Source: an uncultured Gammaproteobacteria bacterium
GTDB lineage: Bacteria > Pseudomonadota > Gammaproteobacteria > PS1 > Pseudothioglobaceae
Direction of reading: 5' to 3'
DNA: 64,000 nt
Assembly: GCA_902512305.1 (NCBI GenBank)
Contig: CABXIU010000007.1
Location: 1-64,000 of the forward strand
Shown piece after piece: positions 265 to 9,727 of the stretch. The position numbers and the translations under genes are program-made. The notes beneath the pieces are model-generated. The model saw nothing but the letters and a program-made list of their open reading frames with translations, was not told the origin of the DNA and searched no databases. Numbering within the stretch: the stretch's first letter is position 1; every line of letters starts with the position of its first letter.

Positions 265-282
265 AGTTATTTATATTGCTCT

Positions 283-380
283 AAGTCCAAATTTCGTTTG
301 ATGTGTGAGGGAGGGTGTATAAATGTATCCGTTATTGCGCTAGGCTCCCCCACCCGTTCCTTCAAAGTCAGTATATATAT
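283..380. repeat. Copy 1 of a ~98-nt dispersed element (conserved arms, variable centre)
   Basis: aagtccaaatttcgtttgatgtgtgagggagggtgt ... ggctccccc ... ccttcaaagtcagtatatatat; matches copy 2 at 8892-8987. Confidence 0.85.
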
Positions 381-414
381 GAGAGGGAAAGACTCAAAAG
401 TTCACAGTGTTATG

Positions 415-2103
415 TTACACACCATACTTTGCTTGTAAATTGGCTTCTAATAGTACCTTTGTGTATGCGTGTTTCGGTGCGCGAATGACATTCTCGGTAG
501 TTCCAGTTTCGACTATTTCGCCGTGATACATAATCACCATACGATCTGCCAAATGTCTGACGACATGAAGGTTGTGAGTAATAATCAGAATTGACAATGA
601 CATACTTTCGCGTAATTCTGCAAGCAGATTGAATATCTCTCCCTGAATAGACACATCAAGGCCTGCAGTTGGTTCGTCAGCAATAATCATTTTTGGACGC
701 AATGCCAAAGCACGAGCCACTCCTACGCGCCTAGCCTGACCACCGGACATCTCATGAGGATAACGATCCACGAAATCCGCTGACAACCCCACCAATTCCA
801 ACAGATGGATAGCCTCGTCTCGTAAATTAAGACCACTTGCTTTTTCCGAAACGATCAAAGGTTCAATCACCGAAGTTCCAACCGGCATACGAGGGTTAAG
901 GCTCCCGATTGGATCTTGCATCATCAATGACATTTCATTGCGGAACGAGCGCATATCTGCATTTGTGATGGACAACAAGTCAGTTCCATCAAAGTATATT
1001 TCACCTTTTTCAGATGGTACAAGGCGAAATGCTGCGCGGGCCAGTGTGGATTTACCCGATCCACTTTCACCAATCAGTGCAACAGTTTCACCGGGTGCAA
1101 TATCTAGAGAGGCTGTTTTCACAGCTTCAACTCTTTGTTTCGGCTTTCCAGTTAGTATATCAATTAGGCTACGCGGTTTACGGAAAGTAACATCAAGGTG
1201 GCGAATTGACAGGAGCGGGCGCGATTTATTGTTGATCCGCTTGCGATCTGTTTCAGGATCAGCCAGTTCTTTTAAACCTAAATTAAACATGATTGGAAGT
1301 CGGCGGCATTTTTCTTCAATCCTCGAAGGATCACAAGTCAAAAGGTTACTAGTGTATTTGTCAGAAGGGTTTGAAAAAACCTCTGATACCGTTCCACATT
1401 CTTTAATATCACCTTGGTGCATGACCGTGACATCATCACAAAGCTCTTCCACAACTGTTAAGTGGTGGGTCACAAACAACATTGAACAACCGATATCTTT
1501 TTGTAATTCCTTCAGAAGTTGAACAATCTCAACTTCAAGGGTTGCATCCAACGCAGTGGTAGCCTCATCTGTGATCAGCAGTTTTGGTCTAGCCATAATT
1601 GCCATGGCGATGCAAACTCTCTGTTTTTGTCCACCAGACAGCTCGTGGGGGTACATACTTAGACGAGCTTGTGCCTGGGGCATTCTAACTTGTTCAAGTG
1701 CCGCTAAAGCATTCGCTAGCTTTTCAGTGGTGCTCTGTTCGCTGAAATGTTGGATATCCAACATTTGTTTGCCAATTCGAAGAGTTGGGTTTAATGCACT
1801 CATCGGATCTTGGGACACATAGGCTAGATCTTTTCCTCGTATTTTTCCCCAATCTTGTGCCGTAAAAGATAGCAGATTGCGACCATCGAAATGAATTGAT
1901 CCATGTGAAATTTGTGCCGCGTAGGGAAGAAGGCCGATGATTGCATTTGCAAGGGTGGATTTACCACTGCCACTTTCGCCAACTAGGCCCATTATTCTGC
2001 CACGACTGATATCCATCGTTACATTATTGACGGCAGTGTGAGATCCAAATTTAATAGCTAAGTCATTGATTTCAATAAGAGGAGTATGTTCAGTCATTTT
2101 CAA
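415..2103 (-). CDS. Dipeptide/oligopeptide-type ABC transporter, fused double ATP-binding protein (DppD-DppF-like)
   Basis: Two Walker A motifs (GESGSGKST twice) and two LSGGQ-type signatures (ELSGGQKQR, EMSGGQARR). Confidence 0.93.
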   Translation of the reverse strand: MKMTEHTPLIEINDLAIKFGSHTAVNNVTMDISRGRIMGLVGESGSGKSTLANAIIGLLPYAAQISHGSIHFDGRNLLSFTAQDWGKIRGKDLAYVSQDPMSALNPTLRIGKQMLDIQHFSEQSTTEKLANALAALEQVRMPQAQARLSMYPHELSGGQKQRVCIAMAIMARPKLLITDEATTALDATLEVEIVQLLKELQKDIGCSMLFVTHHLTVVEELCDDVTVMHQGDIKECGTVSEVFSNPSDKYTSNLLTCDPSRIEEKCRRLPIMFNLGLKELADPETDRKRINNKSRPLLSIRHLDVTFRKPRSLIDILTGKPKQRVEAVKTASLDIAPGETVALIGESGSGKSTLARAAFRLVPSEKGEIYFDGTDLLSITNADMRSFRNEMSLMMQDPIGSLNPRMPVGTSVIEPLIVSEKASGLNLRDEAIHLLELVGLSADFVDRYPHEMSGGQARRVGVARALALRPKMIIADEPTAGLDVSIQGEIFNLLAELRESMSLSILIITHNLHVVRHLADRMVIMYHGEIVETGTTENVIRAPKHAYTKVLLEANLQAKYGV

Positions 2104-2105
2104 AC

Positions 2106-2978
2106 CTATCTGCGGAGTTTCGGATCAAGTATATCGCGCAACCTTTCCCCAAGTGTTGTGAAGGCGACTGTTGTCAGGATAAGCGGCAAGCCTGCTGAAA
2201 TGACAATCCAAGGTGTGTTACGAATAAACGAAAAGCCGTCATTCAAGATGGTACCCCAACTTGGTGTAGGGGGGCGAACGCCAAGACCAAGAAAGCTCAA
2301 ACCTGCTTCTACACCAATAACAAGCGGAATGTCCATGCTGGCAACAATCATGACCGGACCGATCACATTAGGAAAAATATGCCTCATCAAGATCCGGGGT
2401 AATCTTGTACCCATTGCCCGCTGAGCTTCAATGTATTCCATACTACGAAGCGACAGGACTTGGGTGCGCACCAGTCGTGCGTATGATGGAAAGGTCGAGA
2501 TGACGACAATCCCAATAATCGTATTTATGCTGGGGCCAAACAATGCGATCACTGCTAATGCAAACATGAGTGTTGGAAAAGAGCGGACGGTATCAAAAAT
2601 CAACAACATAGACCAATCAATCCAGCGACTTGTAAAGGCAGCGATCATTCCTAGAAAAATACCGATTGCTAGAGAAATCGACACAGCCGTGACCGCGAGG
2701 TAGCTAGCAACTTTAGTGCCAACCAACAGGCGGGAAAACACGTCGCGACCCACTTGGTCGGTTCCAAGCCAATGCGCAGAACTTGGTCCTTGCAGTTTGG
2801 CTCGTATATCCAGTTTGATGGGGTCGTATGGTGCAATCCAATCACCTGTGATGCCGACCACAAAAAATGCGGTAACAATAATGACACTGAACAAACCAAG
2901 AGGTGTTGAGCACAATTTTCTAATGACATTTCTAACCCGAGTCAGACCTGTGTGTTTGTTTGTTCTCTGTGCCATCAA
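2106..2978 (-). CDS. Peptide-type ABC transporter permease (DppC-like)
   Basis: DppC-like N-terminus (HWLGTDQVGRDVFSRLLVGTKVA) and EAA loop; overlaps the upstream permease by 4 bp. Confidence 0.92.
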   Translation of the reverse strand: MMAQRTNKHTGLTRVRNVIRKLCSTPLGLFSVIIVTAFFVVGITGDWIAPYDPIKLDIRAKLQGPSSAHWLGTDQVGRDVFSRLLVGTKVASYLAVTAVSISLAIGIFLGMIAAFTSRWIDWSMLLIFDTVRSFPTLMFALAVIALFGPSINTIIGIVVISTFPSYARLVRTQVLSLRSMEYIEAQRAMGTRLPRILMRHIFPNVIGPVMIVASMDIPLVIGVEAGLSFLGLGVRPPTPSWGTILNDGFSFIRNTPWIVISAGLPLILTTVAFTTLGERLRDILDPKLRR

Positions 2979-3910
2979 TTTTCGTCCTTTGTACGGGGAT
3001 CAAGCATCACATTCAGCAGATCAGAAATAGTGGTGGCAGTTACGATGAACACCGTACTCGCCAAAACTGTCCCCATAACAACAGGATAGTTTCGGCTTAT
3101 AACTGCATCGTACATCAGCTTTCCGATTCCAGGGCGGGAAAAGACTATCTCGACGATGACCGCACTCGATAGTATAAACCCGATGCTAACGCCTAATACA
3201 GTGATGGTGGCAGGTAAAGCCACGCGCAGCACATAAGCACGCAAGATACGTTGGTTTGGGATGCCAAAGGCACGGGCGGTTTTGACATGGTTTTGACCTA
3301 AAACTTCAATCATAGACGCCCGAACAAGTCGAGAAACATAACCGATCCATGTTAGTCCAATCGCAAGAGTAGGTAACACCAGATGCAACAGAATTTCCCA
3401 AAACCCTTCGCCAGCACCGATAGCAGGGAGAAGCTGGAGTGATACTGAAAAGAAAAGAATGAGGTAAAGGCCAATCACAATTGGTGGCACCGCAATCAGC
3501 GACACAGAAACCACACCGCTTGCCTTATCAAAAAACCCATCTCTGTGAACCGCTGCATAGGTTCCAATTGGGATACCTAAAAGCGTAACCAACAAGGTTG
3601 ATGCAACAAGCGACGCGGTGAAGGGAGCCTGTTCAATAAGAATACCCAAAACTGGACGGTTAGACGTCAAATCTACACCCAGATCGCCCTGCATTAGTCC
3701 AGAAAAAAAGTAATAGACTTGCACAATGAATGCATCGTTCAGATGCAACCGTTCCCGAAGCGCCTCTTTCAGTTCTGGTGTTGCACGAGGACCCAGCATC
3801 ACATTGGCTGGATCGCCTGGTACAAATTGTATCATGACAAAAAGCGCCGTGACAGCAAGAATAATAATCAGAATAGAGACTATTATTCTTTGAATAGCAT
3901 AAGCTAACAA
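2975..3910 (-). CDS. Peptide-type ABC transporter permease (DppB-like), TTG start
   Basis: FVPGDPANVMLGPRATPE and C-terminal VEIVFSRPGIGKLMYDAV typical of DppB. Confidence 0.92.
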   Translation of the reverse strand: MLAYAIQRIIVSILIIILAVTALFVMIQFVPGDPANVMLGPRATPELKEALRERLHLNDAFIVQVYYFFSGLMQGDLGVDLTSNRPVLGILIEQAPFTASLVASTLLVTLLGIPIGTYAAVHRDGFFDKASGVVSVSLIAVPPIVIGLYLILFFSVSLQLLPAIGAGEGFWEILLHLVLPTLAIGLTWIGYVSRLVRASMIEVLGQNHVKTARAFGIPNQRILRAYVLRVALPATITVLGVSIGFILSSAVIVEIVFSRPGIGKLMYDAVISRNYPVVMGTVLASTVFIVTATTISDLLNVMLDPRTKDEN

Positions 3911-4047
3911 GTCAAATTTCTCCCATTCATCGGTTCATTGTATCATGACAAAAAGCGCCGTGACATCGAGAATAATAATCAGAATAGAGACTATTATTCT
4001 TTGAATAGCATAAGCCAACACGTCAAATTTATCCCGTTAATCGGTTC
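3826..4047. repeat. 111-bp direct tandem duplication (3826-3936 and 3937-4047)
   Basis: attgtatcatgacaaaaagcgccgtgaca...cggttc occurs twice at an exact 111-bp offset with only a few mismatches. Confidence 0.95.
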
Positions 4048-6091
4048 AAAATCCTTTTCTGGGAATACGCTCATCCCAGCGTCGGCAACAGATCTCCTTG
4101 CCGTCCTCTAATGCTCGAACTTCGCCTCTCAGAAAGAACGCGTCTTGATCGCAGGTCATCGTCATTTTCCCAAAAGTTTCAACATCCCATCCATCACGTT
4201 TGTACCTCTTAGAGAACTGATAGTCGGCAGTGGCGCTATGGACATCCGTATTGCTGATTTCAAACTGATCTTGTGTGAAGCCAGAAATCATAAGATCAGA
4301 ACTGCTTAGATGCGTTTTTCCAAAATTATTGCGGATTGTGAGTGTTCGTTTGCCTGTAGTTAGATCTTCAAGAATGGTTCTACTAGGTAGATCAGGCTCC
4401 AGAACCGAAACCTTACTTGTCTCAGCAACTCGAGAGGGCTGAAATATGACCCGGTCGTCATCGCTTTGCTTTAATTCGACGTTTGGTAGAATAATCCGGC
4501 TACCTGCCAAATGCACTGTTAAATTATGCTTATCTGCCACAGGCCATGCTATTGGCCACATTGCATTTGAAACGGCAATCCTGAGTTTATGTCCTTTTAA
4601 AATACGGTAGGCCGTATCATTTAGGGTCAGTGAAATGCAATAACGTTCATCAGGCACAACTGATGCTTGAACTTCACGCCCATCGCGCTGTGCGAGGTTC
4701 ATGACACCATAGGTAATTAGAGTAGATGATCCGTCTTGTGCAACATCGCACAGGCGGACAGCCAACAATCCATTACCGGCATCGCTGCTCACTTCGAATT
4801 CAGCAGTAGTTGTTCCGATAATATCAAGTGGTACTTTTTGGATCGGCATATCAAAACATAAAGATCCAGCATCTTCATTGCGTTGATCACCAGGCATCTG
4901 CGCATTTCGAATATCTCCGTACCCTGGCATGTAATCCCCACTCATCATCCCAGTTGATTGAGGTGAATTTATTGACATTTGTCCCTGTGCAGGGCTATCT
5001 GAAGTTCCCTCAGGTGAAAGCCAAATCTCACGATACATTAGACTTTCATCAGGCCACGACTGGGCGTCAAGCCAAACACCATCACGCCAATTATGGCAGG
5101 GATCAACTGGGACATCTTCCTGACGGAATAAAGTCAGCATCGGTTCATCTTCTATTCCGTTCTCGATGCCTTTTAACCAGCGATCGAACCAACGAAGCAT
5201 TTCATCTAGAAAATTAACACCTGGTCCGGGCATTGCCCGATTTGGGTAAAGATGCGACCATGGTCCAATCAGACCTTTACGGGTTGAGGTAAGATTTTTC
5301 ATCAGACGCATCACGGTGTTGGGCCAGCAATCTGTCCAACCGGAGACCGCATAGACGGGAATTTTGATGCGGCTATAATCCGTACAAACTGAGCCTTGCA
5401 ACCAATAGTCGTCGCGTTGTTGGTGTTCGAGCCATGTCTTCATGAATAAAGGTGGTTCTTCGAGACGTTTCATCCACGCATCCCGCCATTCATTACCATA
5501 GATTACAGGATCAGGCGGGCGGCCGTTCAAAGCAAACATGACACCACCCCAACCAATTGTTTCGCCAGCTAAACCACCAACGAAATAAGCCCCATCATCA
5601 TAATAACGGTCAACGGAAGCTCCGACGGGCACAATAGCTTTCAGTGCAGGCGGTCGATGTGTTGCTAGTTGGAGCGAGGTGATTCCTCCCCAAGACAAGC
5701 CAAACATACCAACATTGCCGTTACTCCAAATTTGTTTTGACAGCCAATCAATAATCTCCAGACCATCTTGCTGTTCAATCGGCAGGTATTCATCTAGCTG
5801 AATACCTTCAGAATCGCCAGATCCTCGCATGTCAACACGAACACAGACATAGCCGTGACCTGCAAGATAAGCGTGTTGCTCTTCATCCCGGATGCGAGTG
5901 TCATCACGCTTTCTATAAGGAATATATTCTAGGATTGAAGGAAATATCTCAGTTCTACTTGCAACTGGTTTCCAAATCCTTGCGGCAAGACGTGTGCCAT
6001 CTGAGATTGGAATATAAATTTCCTCGTCGATGACTTGATAAGGGAGATCGGATAAAGAAACTTCAATGGGAGGATAACTGTCAGAAAACAT
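4046..6091 (-). CDS. CocE/NonD family (X-Pro dipeptidyl-peptidase S15-like) hydrolase
   Basis: RVDMRGSGDSEG and nucleophile elbow GLSWGGITS; overall CocE architecture. Confidence 0.9.
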   Translation of the reverse strand: MFSDSYPPIEVSLSDLPYQVIDEEIYIPISDGTRLAARIWKPVASRTEIFPSILEYIPYRKRDDTRIRDEEQHAYLAGHGYVCVRVDMRGSGDSEGIQLDEYLPIEQQDGLEIIDWLSKQIWSNGNVGMFGLSWGGITSLQLATHRPPALKAIVPVGASVDRYYDDGAYFVGGLAGETIGWGGVMFALNGRPPDPVIYGNEWRDAWMKRLEEPPLFMKTWLEHQQRDDYWLQGSVCTDYSRIKIPVYAVSGWTDCWPNTVMRLMKNLTSTRKGLIGPWSHLYPNRAMPGPGVNFLDEMLRWFDRWLKGIENGIEDEPMLTLFRQEDVPVDPCHNWRDGVWLDAQSWPDESLMYREIWLSPEGTSDSPAQGQMSINSPQSTGMMSGDYMPGYGDIRNAQMPGDQRNEDAGSLCFDMPIQKVPLDIIGTTTAEFEVSSDAGNGLLAVRLCDVAQDGSSTLITYGVMNLAQRDGREVQASVVPDERYCISLTLNDTAYRILKGHKLRIAVSNAMWPIAWPVADKHNLTVHLAGSRIILPNVELKQSDDDRVIFQPSRVAETSKVSVLEPDLPSRTILEDLTTGKRTLTIRNNFGKTHLSSSDLMISGFTQDQFEISNTDVHSATADYQFSKRYKRDGWDVETFGKMTMTCDQDAFFLRGEVRALEDGKEICCRRWDERIPRKGF

Positions 6092-6122
6092 AAATCTTTT
6101 CTTTGTGTTAAAAAATTAAAAG

Positions 6123-6153
6123 CTTGCTGGCGAAGTAAGGCTCCGCCAGCAAG
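6123..6153 (-). terminator. Intergenic hairpin with T-rich tail downstream of the substrate-binding protein gene (partial terminator / mRNA stabiliser)
   Basis: Perfect 10-bp stem cttgctggcg/cgccagcaag; minus strand continues into ttttaatttttt. Confidence 0.7.
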
Positions 6154-6164
6154 GGGTATACATC

Positions 6165-7700
6165 TTAGTTCGCAGTTGCGAAGTCTTGCAGTTTGTAGTC
6201 GCCATTCGGCATCAAGCCTGGGTTGATCGACGATTTGTAAACCCGCGCTAAAGGTGGATGGATCAGCCAGACAAAGGAATGCGATTCATCCATCAGCTTC
6301 TGCATTTGCTCGTACATTTCAGCACGCTTGCCAAAATCAGTTTCTGACAATGCTGCGTAATGTAGTTTCTCGTATTCAGCATTTTTGAACCATTCCCAGT
6401 TCCAGATGCCAGCTTGTCCTTCAAGGAACCACTGGGTAGACCATGCTGGATCTGGCGGGCTAGTGAAAGTTTTAAGCGTCATCTGCATATTGACACCTTT
6501 TTCGTCACCTAAACTCCAAAACGTTCCACTTTCATGCACGTTAAGTTGAAGATTCACACCAATTTCTGCCAGATTCGACTGAATAATTAGAGCTGCAGTC
6601 TGTTCATCTGTTGAATTCTGAAGTTCCAACTCAAGATTAAGCGAAGTGATACCTGCATCTGCAAGTAATGCTTTTGCACCTGCGACATCACGTGGTGGTT
6701 GTGCCTCTTCGCTGTGGCCAATAAGACCAGGAGCGACAAGTCCCGTTGAGCGTTCTGGGATGCCAAAGTAAGCTCCTTCAATAATCGCCTCAACATCAAT
6801 TGCTTTTTTAATCGCTTCGCGAACCCGCGCGTCCTTCAAATTTGTATTTTCCGCATTAAGACCAAGCCAAAAATAATCAGCACTTGGACGGACTTCAAGA
6901 AGCTCATCATCAGACAAAGACGCTTGCATACCTGGGACAGAACTTATGGCTACTTGGGTAATATCGACTTGACCTGCCTTAAACGCAACTTCTGCTAATT
7001 TTGGATCATTTATAGGAATCAGCTCAAGGCGATCAAAAGCAGGGGCTTCACCGTTCCAACCATCATGTGCTACAAGGACTGTACGTTGGCCTTGCTCCCA
7101 ACTTTCAATTTTATATGGCCCTGCAGTTACTTTAGGATCGGTCGTAAACTTACCGCCCATTTCTTCCATCGCCTTCTTGCTCAGGATAGCACCTCCCGTG
7201 TAGGGTAAAGTACTCCACCAGATTGGAGCGAATGGCTCTTTTAAGTGGATTAGTCCAGAATATTTGTCGAGCACCTCGACATCTTTTAGAGGCGACCAAT
7301 CACCAGCATTTGGTGCGGCAAGGTCTTCATTTAGGAAGCGCTCGAAAGAATATTCTACATCCTCGGCCGACACCTCGCCATATCCATTCGTCCACATGAG
7401 GCCTGGCTTGAGAGTGAACTTGATAGTTAGTTCGTCGATCTGCTCAATGCTTTCGGCAGATGAAAGCTGCCACTCCCAGTTTTTACTGGATTTAAACTCG
7501 ATGAGCTTAGGATAAATCGCGTGAATGACGTTTCGATCCGATTGACTTGCCCAGAAAGCTGGATCCAATTGTCCAAAATCAGATTGAACCTGAATCTTTA
7601 ACTCAGCAGCATAAGTTGGTACACTGACTGCCAAACACATAGCTATTCCAACGGAAAGGATCGACCTTGTCGTAAAATTTAGAATGTTATTAATTTTCAT
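6165..7700 (-). CDS. ABC transporter substrate-binding protein, family 5 (peptide/nickel type)
   Basis: Signal peptide followed by SBP_bac_5 features (WTNGYGEVSAEDVEYSFERFL, VREAIKKAID). Confidence 0.92.
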   Translation of the reverse strand: MKINNILNFTTRSILSVGIAMCLAVSVPTYAAELKIQVQSDFGQLDPAFWASQSDRNVIHAIYPKLIEFKSSKNWEWQLSSAESIEQIDELTIKFTLKPGLMWTNGYGEVSAEDVEYSFERFLNEDLAAPNAGDWSPLKDVEVLDKYSGLIHLKEPFAPIWWSTLPYTGGAILSKKAMEEMGGKFTTDPKVTAGPYKIESWEQGQRTVLVAHDGWNGEAPAFDRLELIPINDPKLAEVAFKAGQVDITQVAISSVPGMQASLSDDELLEVRPSADYFWLGLNAENTNLKDARVREAIKKAIDVEAIIEGAYFGIPERSTGLVAPGLIGHSEEAQPPRDVAGAKALLADAGITSLNLELELQNSTDEQTAALIIQSNLAEIGVNLQLNVHESGTFWSLGDEKGVNMQMTLKTFTSPPDPAWSTQWFLEGQAGIWNWEWFKNAEYEKLHYAALSETDFGKRAEMYEQMQKLMDESHSFVWLIHPPLARVYKSSINPGLMPNGDYKLQDFATAN

Positions 7701-7874
7701 TTTTTCTCCTTTTTTTAATAATTGATAACTAATTAAAAGACCATCAATTGAATAAGCTTTTGTAGACTTAAAGTAATTTAAACTACAATCTCGAAAAAAT
7801 AGTCTTTATTTAACTTACCTAAAAGAGAATACATCAAAATTGATAATTTTATAATTTCGCATTAATAAAATACT

Positions 7875-7919
7875 TGAAGCACAATCATAAAAAAAGTGCT
7901 TCACTATGCTTCACTTTTT
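7875..7919. promoter_or_regulatory. Cluster of three TGAAGCA-type motifs with alternative hairpins
   Basis: tgaagcac (7875-7882), gtgcttca (7896-7903), and tgcttcac from 7907; also aaaaagtg/cacttttt (7891-7898/7912-7919). Confidence 0.5.
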
Positions 7920-8010
7920 ATAAATAATAAAATTTTCCAGCGTAATTACTTTGCCGAATGTGAACAGTATTTTTGAAAGTCGAGAAAAATTAAACTAAAG
8001 TAATAGAGTT

Positions 8011-8838
8011 CTAGTTATCGTAGGCCTTTAACATTTTTTCCGGATTATTTATTTCATTTTCGATTCTCGCTTTGATATTAGAATCAATCGACTTGCTATT
8101 TAATTTAAATAAACCACAACCCCTCAATACTTCTCTGATATTGATTTGCTTACCTAAATATTTGAATTCAATTCTCATTGCAGCCGGCACACGAGAATTT
8201 TTGCTACCTACACCCATTGAGACTCCTGATAGCGAATCTACAATATTCATATAACTGGGGCATAAGACTGTGTGATGGATAACATTATGAGTTAGCACTT
8301 CAACTTCAGTAATAAAGATTCGATCACCTAGAAAAAACACAGTTCCATTGTATTTAAATCGGCTTGGTTGAATACCCCCATTTTCTTTGTCCCATAGATG
8401 CTCAATACTTGTTGAGTAAAAATTATTCTCATACTGATAGATATGAATCAGGCTCCGATTTATATAGCCAGGATATTCAGGCGAATGAAAGTGGCTGTAG
8501 TAATAACCTTCGTAGCGTGACAAATCATTACTAAGGCTGGATATTGAATCAATAGTATTATTTAACTTAATCTTCCCAGGATTTGATTCCAACTGATGAC
8601 TTTTAGAAGCAATCAGACGGAATTCACTTGGTTTTAGGTTGAACTCTTCTTCCGACAATTGGAAATATTGACAAATTTTATTTAAATTATATTTTGAAGG
8701 ATAAATTTGACCACTTAAATACTTATTGAATTGCTGTCGATTAATCTCCATCTTTCGACAAACATGAGCTACCGAAATTTGTTTATTGGATACTGTACGT
8801 AAATTATTAAAAAAATTTTCGTGTGGCATAACCTTCAA
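8011..8838 (-). CDS. XRE-type helix-turn-helix regulator with an uncharacterized C-terminal domain
   Basis: N-terminal HTH ISVAHVCRKMEINRQQFNKYLSGQIYPSKYNLNKICQYF; remainder not recognised. Confidence 0.75.
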   Translation of the reverse strand: MKVMPHENFFNNLRTVSNKQISVAHVCRKMEINRQQFNKYLSGQIYPSKYNLNKICQYFQLSEEEFNLKPSEFRLIASKSHQLESNPGKIKLNNTIDSISSLSNDLSRYEGYYYSHFHSPEYPGYINRSLIHIYQYENNFYSTSIEHLWDKENGGIQPSRFKYNGTVFFLGDRIFITEVEVLTHNVIHHTVLCPSYMNIVDSLSGVSMGVGSKNSRVPAAMRIEFKYLGKQINIREVLRGCGLFKLNSKSIDSNIKARIENEINNPEKMLKAYDN

Positions 8839-8891
8839 GGAAAAGGTTTGATTAGTTTTTTCATACTATGATTGTATATCAACTTGGACTA

Positions 8892-8987
8892 AAGTCCAAA
8901 CTTCGTTTTATGTGTGAGGGAGGGTGTGTATATCTATCTCCGAGTTCGAGAGGGGCTCCCCCGTACCTTCAAAGTCAGTATATATAT
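8892..8987. repeat. Copy 2 of the ~97-nt dispersed element; right arm runs into the tauE-like 3' end
   Basis: aagtccaaacttcgttttatgtgtgagggagggtgt ... ggctccccc ... ccttcaaagtcagtatatatat. Confidence 0.85.
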
Positions 8988-9727
8988 CTAGCTAGCATTG
9001 AAATAGACATTACTACAATTAGAATTCTAATAACTCTTGGATTGGCTTGCAGCAAGTAATGAGTACCCATAAAAGATCCAATCAATTGCCCTAGCATCAT
9101 AATCAGTCCAACAAAAAAGGCGATATGTCCAAATATAAAAAATACGACAAAGCCACCAATATTTGATGCGAAATTAAGAGGTTTTGCCAATATTGTTGCT
9201 TGAATAATTTCAAGTTTTTTTAGCATTACACCTGTCATAACATAAAAAGAGCCAGCCCCAGGTCCAAACATCCCATCGTAAAAACCTACTCCTGGAACGG
9301 CATATGATTCGAATTTATTATGAGACTTAGAGTTTGAACTAATGGTTTTAGGTTTTGGTGAAATAATAAAATAAATTGCAATAAAAACAAGGGCAACTGG
9401 AATGACGAACGAAAGAACTTGGGTATCAATAAACTGCACTATGATACCTCCTATTACTGAGCCAATAAATGCTGCAATCATTAATTTTTTGACTGATTTC
9501 CAATCTAACTTTTTTTTGCGTAAGAGTAGAAAAGTAGCTATGCCAGTACCCATACTTCCCTGAAACTTATTCGTTCCTAGAACGTAAATTGGAGGAATAC
9601 CACTTAATAAGAGTGCAGGTACTGCTAGCAAACCACCTCCGCCTACAAGCGTATCAAGAAAGCCAGCAATCACACCAACTAGAAATAAAAAAGCTAGAAT
9701 TTCAATTGAGAAGTTAGCAATATCCAT
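8975..9727 (-). CDS. Sulfite exporter TauE/SafE family (TSUP) permease
   Basis: GFLDTLVGGGGLLAVPALLL and FYDGMFGPGAGSFYV motifs. Confidence 0.92.
   Translation of the reverse strand: MDIANFSIEILAFLFLVGVIAGFLDTLVGGGGLLAVPALLLSGIPPIYVLGTNKFQGSMGTGIATFLLLRKKKLDWKSVKKLMIAAFIGSVIGGIIVQFIDTQVLSFVIPVALVFIAIYFIISPKPKTISSNSKSHNKFESYAVPGVGFYDGMFGPGAGSFYVMTGVMLKKLEIIQATILAKPLNFASNIGGFVVFFIFGHIAFFVGLIMMLGQLIGSFMGTHYLLQANPRVIRILIVVMSISMLARYIY

Follow-up and report, generated by a model that had tools for sequence, protein, structure and literature searches.

Modular gene capture in bacteria is known above all from integrons, the standard example; their attC sites vary in sequence and conserve a structure, and most integron cassettes have no promoter (PMC9024848). 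Acinetobacter harbors dif modules with 28-bp sites that carry XerC and XerD arms and were first described as flanking inverted repeats (PMC6449649), and the homologous replacement of genomic islands has been proposed for aquatic prokaryotes (PMC4033161). We analyzed a stretch of 64,000 nucleotides (hereafter the window), which is the first 64 kb of the 84,805-base contig CABXIU010000007.1 from Candidatus (Ca.) Pseudothioglobus (Thioglobaceae, SUP05 clade). Two elements of about 98 nt flank a block of importer and regulator genes in the window, and we consider it probable that such elements join the gene cassettes of an integron-like system in this genus. Comparison of the genome sequences reveals a repeat with sharp limits and direct orientation, precise breaks of homology at the repeat, exchange of cassettes between genomes, a crossover that maps to the middle of the repeat and an enrichment of promoters beside it.

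An earlier reading of the window from its letters and open reading frames (ORFs), here called the sequence-only reading, had described paired elements of about 97 nt with conserved arms and a variable center. The pieces of that description stand. The left arms at 283-318 and 8892-8927 differ at two positions, GGCTCCCCC is found at 343-351 and 8954-8962, the two 22-nt right arms (359-380 and 8966-8987) are identical, the stretches between the arms are variable (the spacers in Table 1), and the right arm of copy 2 does overlap the final codons of a TauE-like gene. The limits do not stand: the elements measure 98 nt (283-380) and 96 nt (8892-8987), but the natural conserved unit is a 31-nt core, AAGTCCAAATTTCGTTTGATGTGTGAGGGAG. 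A weight matrix of the core with a threshold of 13 bits recovered 232 sites in 27 genomes and no match in 3 Mb of Markov-random sequence. Over the 232 sites the information amounts to 1.1-2.2 bits per position at core positions 0-31 and is mostly below 0.5 bits outside. The arms of the core are conserved and its center has alternative blocks, TTTCGTTT and (T/C)NCTCTCT-like, an arrangement that would fit protein-binding arms and an overlap region. The 98-nt form adds to the core a spacer of 44-52 nt and then a degenerate second core with the consensus CAAAGTC(T/A)G(T/A)ATATATATGCGAGGGATGG, which looks like the first core with about 6 nt missing. The second core was present at 47 of the 232 sites, so that solo cores without the right half form the majority. 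With up to three mismatches allowed, the right arm matched just two places in the window and none in 100 dinucleotide shuffles. We considered the right arm as an independent terminal repeat and rejected this, as it always had a left core before it in the first set of loci; later loci gave a few apparent exceptions. Second cores, comprising spacer and right arm, stand without a recognizable first core at L251:6835, L256:2851 and L258:865.

The sequence-only reading had proposed counting the copies per genome, and had taken two copies in the same arrangement in all relatives as part of the outcome that would speak against a mobile element and an RNA family; the result was the opposite. A DNA search found cores in 28 of the 29 genomes of the genus, with up to about 34 per genome (BLAST matches reached 31 in one genome). 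Family-wide, matches came from 30 of 83 genomes: those of the genus, the two genomes of a second one, and a third genus with a single weak match; a longer query added one more weak match, in a fourth genus, and no cores were found in the complete genomes of related genera. In public genomes, exact matches to the core came nearly all from Ca. Thioglobus or Pseudothioglobus records or from uncultured gammaproteobacterial records. Exact 31-nt cores were also seen at three loci (L108, L117 and L119) of a metagenome-assembled genome labelled Rhodospirillales (UWMA-0295), which could be a mislabelled bin, contamination or real spread. Four patterns gave no exact core in the IMG/VR viral contigs, a search of phages gave nothing beyond 18-nt matches at chance level (E 0.9), and no core matches were found in plasmids.

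The sites form tandem arrays. Neighboring sites within 6 kb have the same orientation in 129 of 131 pairs and the opposite one in 2, and their spacing has a median of 1326 bp (5-95%: 278-3913), usually around one gene. One ORF is present in 83 of the 127 complete cassettes. The cassette ORFs (n = 193) fall into 131 families, with Pfam matches to acetyltransferases, methyltransferases, aminotransferases, peptidases, permeases and others, and read away from the site in 132 cases and towards it in 61. The largest family (23 ORFs) appears to be secreted, its proteins starting MKKLLLLLILSFFS..GFAGSCPDGSEPVKSISADGTYFVYNCG and some of them carrying FG-GAP repeats; its members stand as tandem paralogues at L086:5715-14207 and in other arrays. 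The PADLOC matches listed for the cassette proteins (25 families) resemble isolated helicase, methylase and regulator domains, and no defense system is visible among them. Many arrays begin at a 98-nt-type site beside tRNA-Met and coaE, and other anchors exist; at least nine genomes have such a site between the array and a tRNA-Met gene next to coaE, at a distance of a few hundred bases from the tRNA gene. At L082:4069-4106, the cassette left of the core ends like the 3' end of tRNA-Met (TATGGTGGTTATGAATGGACTTGAA), fused directly to the core.

Evidence for exchange at the core comes from pairs of sites in different genomes. Homology covered the left flank only in 98 pairs and the right flank only in 84 (182 one-sided pairs), compared to 3 pairs with homology on both sides. 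When two single-contig and five single-cell genomes alone were used, 41 one-sided and 0 two-sided pairs were obtained, and chimeric assembly is therefore no explanation for the breaks. Within arrays, 88 of 173 unique homology breakpoints fell at a core, compared to 6.4% expected by area. Fourteen whole cassettes of 330-2085 bp were common to two genomes from end to end, and 13 of them had unrelated neighbors on both sides. Several loci, including the tRNA-Met anchor, can be read as an empty site in one genome and the same site with 1-5 cassettes in another. These results strongly support the suggestion of the sequence-only reading that the elements are paired sites at which a cassette recombines or inserts.

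The position of the exchange was estimated from mismatches within the core. Left-homologous pairs (at least 85% identity, n = 18) had no mismatches at core positions 2, 4, 9, 11 and 12, where right-homologous pairs (n = 17) differed as often as background; the converse held at positions 17, 20, 28 and 30. The swap of the mismatch patterns places the exchange between about core positions 13 and 17, near the center. A crossover at the center of a 31-bp repeat in turn argues for a site-specific enzyme, as far as genome comparison can indicate one.

We propose that a site-specific recombinase, most likely a tyrosine recombinase, would recognize the double-stranded 31-nt core and join two cores near their center, at or beside ...TTTCG^TTTGA.... 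The mobile cassette would be a circle or a segment with one core, a circular intermediate being plausible. Insertion at a resident core would leave direct cores on both sides of the cassette and would thereby build tandem arrays, and excision would be the reverse. The 98-nt double-core anchor by tRNA-Met and coaE may act like attI. A promoter formed with the core would express the gene that reads away from the site. Consistent with this last step, the core read leftward, that is outward, contains the -35 box TTGGAC. A -10 sequence matching TATAAT at five or more of six positions stands at promoter spacing in 52 of 173 sites, compared to about 13 expected, the common spacer between the two boxes is 17 nt, and the first ATG lies 6 nt past the -10 box in 31 of the 52 promoter-bearing sites. 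As the core supplies the -35 box, about 30% of sites carry a predicted outward promoter.

Several results weigh against this proposal, most of them from the search for its enzyme. No protein in 29 genomes exceeded the cut-off for IntI (TIGR02249), the matches being XerC, XerD and island integrases. A serine recombinase was found in only 4 of 29 genomes, the Y1 transposase (PF01797), which is the enzyme of REP/RAYT systems, in only 1 of 29, and IS110 in none of 8. The extra tyrosine integrases are missing from some array-bearing genomes (G014 and G024), and most of those examined adjoin tRNA or tmRNA genes. No circles or excision were observed, and the core is only weakly palindromic. The site pairs used to place the crossover are not independent: retaining one per cluster left 7 left and 15 right clusters, which gave the same trend with little power. 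With one pair per cluster, the left-homologous set had 2 mismatches at positions 0-12 compared to 10.6 expected, and the right-homologous set showed only a mild depletion at positions 17-30 (17 compared to 25.9 expected).

A search of eight genomes with PF00589 recovered XerC and XerD in all of them and other tyrosine recombinases in some only, and no candidate recombinase besides XerC and XerD was common to the eight. The enzyme may be XerCD working at a site other than dif, a recombinase that has diverged, one supplied in trans, or one that was lost after the arrays were built. Integrase genes do occur close to sites, at 58 nt in genome G006 and near 98-nt-type sites in G003, G015 and G023. 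We considered the island integrases as the agent and rejected them; those examined adjoin genes for tRNA-His, tRNA-Arg, tRNA-Pro, tRNA-Lys, tRNA-Met or tmRNA, and because of this position and their absence from array-bearing genomes they were set aside as belonging to separate islands. A 7.6-kb integrase island in the window's own genome lies between two copies of tRNA-Pro(ggg) (L129:1758-1834 and 9390-9466). Tyrosine integrases with an Arm-DNA-bind_3 domain lie beside a tRNA-Met 3' fragment at L175:2-1174 (minus strand) and L135:5998-7272 (plus strand). This tRNA-Met is the one that anchors the cassette arrays, making the locus a double hotspot; at L175 about 450 nt separate the integrase gene from a 98-nt-type site, and the gene is oriented divergently from the array, which recalls the arrangement of intI and attI.

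The main rival to a dedicated cassette system is the homologous replacement of islands. By RecA-type recombination, the core would be a common intergenic promoter repeat and the sole shared sequence available to imported DNA. The failure to find a dedicated recombinase in array-bearing genomes favors this explanation, the -35 box gives the core a reason to be repeated, and island replacement has been reported for other aquatic prokaryotes (PMC4033161). However, 31 bp is very short for such exchange, and the crossover maps to mid-core rather than anywhere within the core. Direct orientation is almost total, and many sites at which a gene ends on the promoter side, and which lack a promoter, still retain all 31 nt. 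We regard RecA-type exchange as unlikely, though it is the best of the alternatives.

A slightly less likely explanation is that the core serves the XerC and XerD of the host as another site of the dif type. Their occurrence as the only tyrosine recombinases in all eight genomes checked speaks for it, as does the existence of Xer-dependent modules in Acinetobacter (PMC6449649). A single canonical dif, GTATAATTTATATTATGTTAAAT or GCATAATTTATATTATGTTAAAT (for example G003:844768-844790 and G004:1160290-1160312), is present in every Pseudothioglobus genome that was checked, and the core is unlike it, agreeing with the dif arms at 10 of 22 positions, a level that shuffled cores reach too (P 0.44). 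The cores are also direct (129 compared to 2), whereas the first dif module was described with inverted repeats (PMC6449649).

That the arrays are a true integron, or a cluster of attC sites without an integrase (CALIN), with very divergent attC sites is highly improbable and already contradicted. It would be suited by the direct sites in tandem, by cassettes that mostly hold one gene and by a crossover that could fall at G^TT, the attC position, and CALINs are common (PMC9024848). Against it, besides the lack of an IntI match above the cut-off, the left flank and core of 176 sites show no gain in folding over shuffled flanks (mean z -0.10), and the R box GTTRRRY was seen in 1 core of 185, most cores having GTTTGAT instead. 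The site keeps its sequence and not a structure, the opposite of attC. The attC-like left flanks of some sites (ATCAAC..TTGAACT..AGTCCAA..GTTTGAT), with TTGGACTAAAGTCCAA as a perfect palindrome in a few, were followed as a candidate and dropped, as there was no excess folding over the 176 sites.

The pairing of GGGAG with CTCCC across the center of the 98-nt form, noted by the sequence-only reading, could form on paper; over 32 copies, however, the number of pairs predicted by RNAalifold is 0, and single-strand folds of four copies were no better than shuffles in three, with z = -1.2 in the fourth. The further suggestion of a structured RNA family or a REP/MITE-like element, to which this pairing and the intergenic position of the copies would lend some appeal, can be dismissed almost entirely, given no Rfam match over threshold, no consensus fold or covariation in the 32 copies, the predominance of solo cores without a right half, and repeats that are joints between cassettes rather than inserts and run in one direction per array in a genus where Y1 is so rare.

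In the window, the paired elements in one orientation do bracket the importer and regulator block of about 8.6 kb, as the sequence-only reading had it, and we can now describe this block as one cassette (Table 1). Copy 1 lies only 283 bases from the contig end because the window opens the contig; assemblies in the genus often terminate near such copies. The importer is of the Opp/Dpp type. Its block has a GC content of 0.45, compared to 0.36 at 9-64 kb of the window, and two of 29 genomes encode its solute-binding protein, the second in a version 42% identical to it, so that the cassette appears nearly strain-specific among these genomes. Composition and rarity together suggest recent acquisition. 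The cassette is unusually long, and intermediate cores may have been lost from it. A 111-bp tandem duplication (3826-4047, copies 94% identical) covers both the start of the OppB-like gene and the end of the S15 peptidase gene.

Table 1. Features of the importer cassette and its two flanking elements, in window coordinates.
Feature	Position	Strand	Details
31-nt core, putative recombination site, copy 1	283..313	+	exact consensus, 0 mismatches to AAGTCCAAATTTCGTTTGATGTGTGAGGGAG
Variable spacer, copy 1, 98-nt (type a) form	314..362	+	contains GGCTCCCCC; no conserved fold
Second degenerate core, copy 1	363..391	+	CAAAGTC..ATATATAT..GAGGGA; 4 mismatches to second-core consensus
Cassette between the two cores	297..8905	.	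limits set at the probable crossover, core position about 13/14
Fused ABC ATPase, oligopeptide/dipeptide type (cargo)	415..2103	-	Pfam ABC_tran x2, oligo_HPY
ABC permease, OppC-like (cargo)	2106..2978	-	BPD_transp_1, OppC_N
ABC permease, OppB-like (cargo)	2975..3910	-	BPD_transp_1 and its N-terminal domain
S15 peptidase-family hydrolase (cargo)	4046..6091	-	Peptidase_S15, PepX_C
Family 5 extracellular solute-binding protein (cargo)	6165..7700	-	SBP_bac_5
HTH regulator-like gene, first left of copy 2 (cargo)	8011..8838	-	HTH_26
Promoter-like pair out of copy 2	8871..8899	-	-35 TTGGAC (reverse complement of 8894-8899, within core), 17 nt, -10 TACAAT (reverse complement of 8871-8876); before HTH gene
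31-nt core, putative recombination site, copy 2	8892..8922	+	2 mismatches
Variable spacer, copy 2	8923..8969	+	from alignment
Second core, left half, copy 2	8970..8987	+	homology ends after TATATATAT; overlaps last codons of TauE-like gene

A cassette system of this kind would explain the gain and loss of transporters, methyltransferases and secreted proteins in the small genomes of the widespread marine SUP05 clade, as well as the tendency of assemblies in the genus to end at these repeats, and the core could be used directly to search metagenomes for cassettes. We give roughly even chances to the wider proposal that this is a gene-capture platform separate from integrons and from Xer/dif, with a double-stranded 31-nt core, an unrecognized or trans-acting recombinase, a double-core anchor at tRNA-Met and promoters in the cores, shuffling genes throughout the genus. 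If true, it would be a second solution to modular gene capture, with another site and apparently another enzyme. A partial literature search on integrons and cassettes in Pseudothioglobus and Thioglobus found no description of the system.

Compared with known systems, the arrays resemble the replacement flexible islands of marine bacteria in having variable gene content between conserved borders; those islands use long flanking homology, whereas here exchange occurs at every joint between genes, at one 31-nt sequence. Like the tRNA-targeting islands (P4-type, tycheposons), they have their main anchor beside tRNA-Met, and such islands are also present, sometimes at the same tRNA. The junction of those islands is a pair of duplicated tRNA ends next to an integrase; here it is the 31-nt core, the common cassettes have no integrase, and there are tens of units per genome. 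The Acinetobacter pdif modules are alike in that short sites (about 30 nt) bound interchangeable modules and no dedicated recombinase lies in the array, and differ in that the core is unrelated to dif, direct and not inverted, and arranged in chromosomal arrays. Integrons and CALINs share the tandem direct sites, the small, diverse and mostly one-gene cassettes, the precise exchange, the anchored end and the assemblies that break at the sites. In contrast to integrons, no IntI, attC foldback or R box was found and the 31-nt core is conserved in sequence; integron genes are mostly promoterless and end at the site, whereas here most genes read away from it, with the outward promoter at some of the sites. 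The system may thus work like an integron without being a member of that class, and possibly represents a separate kind.

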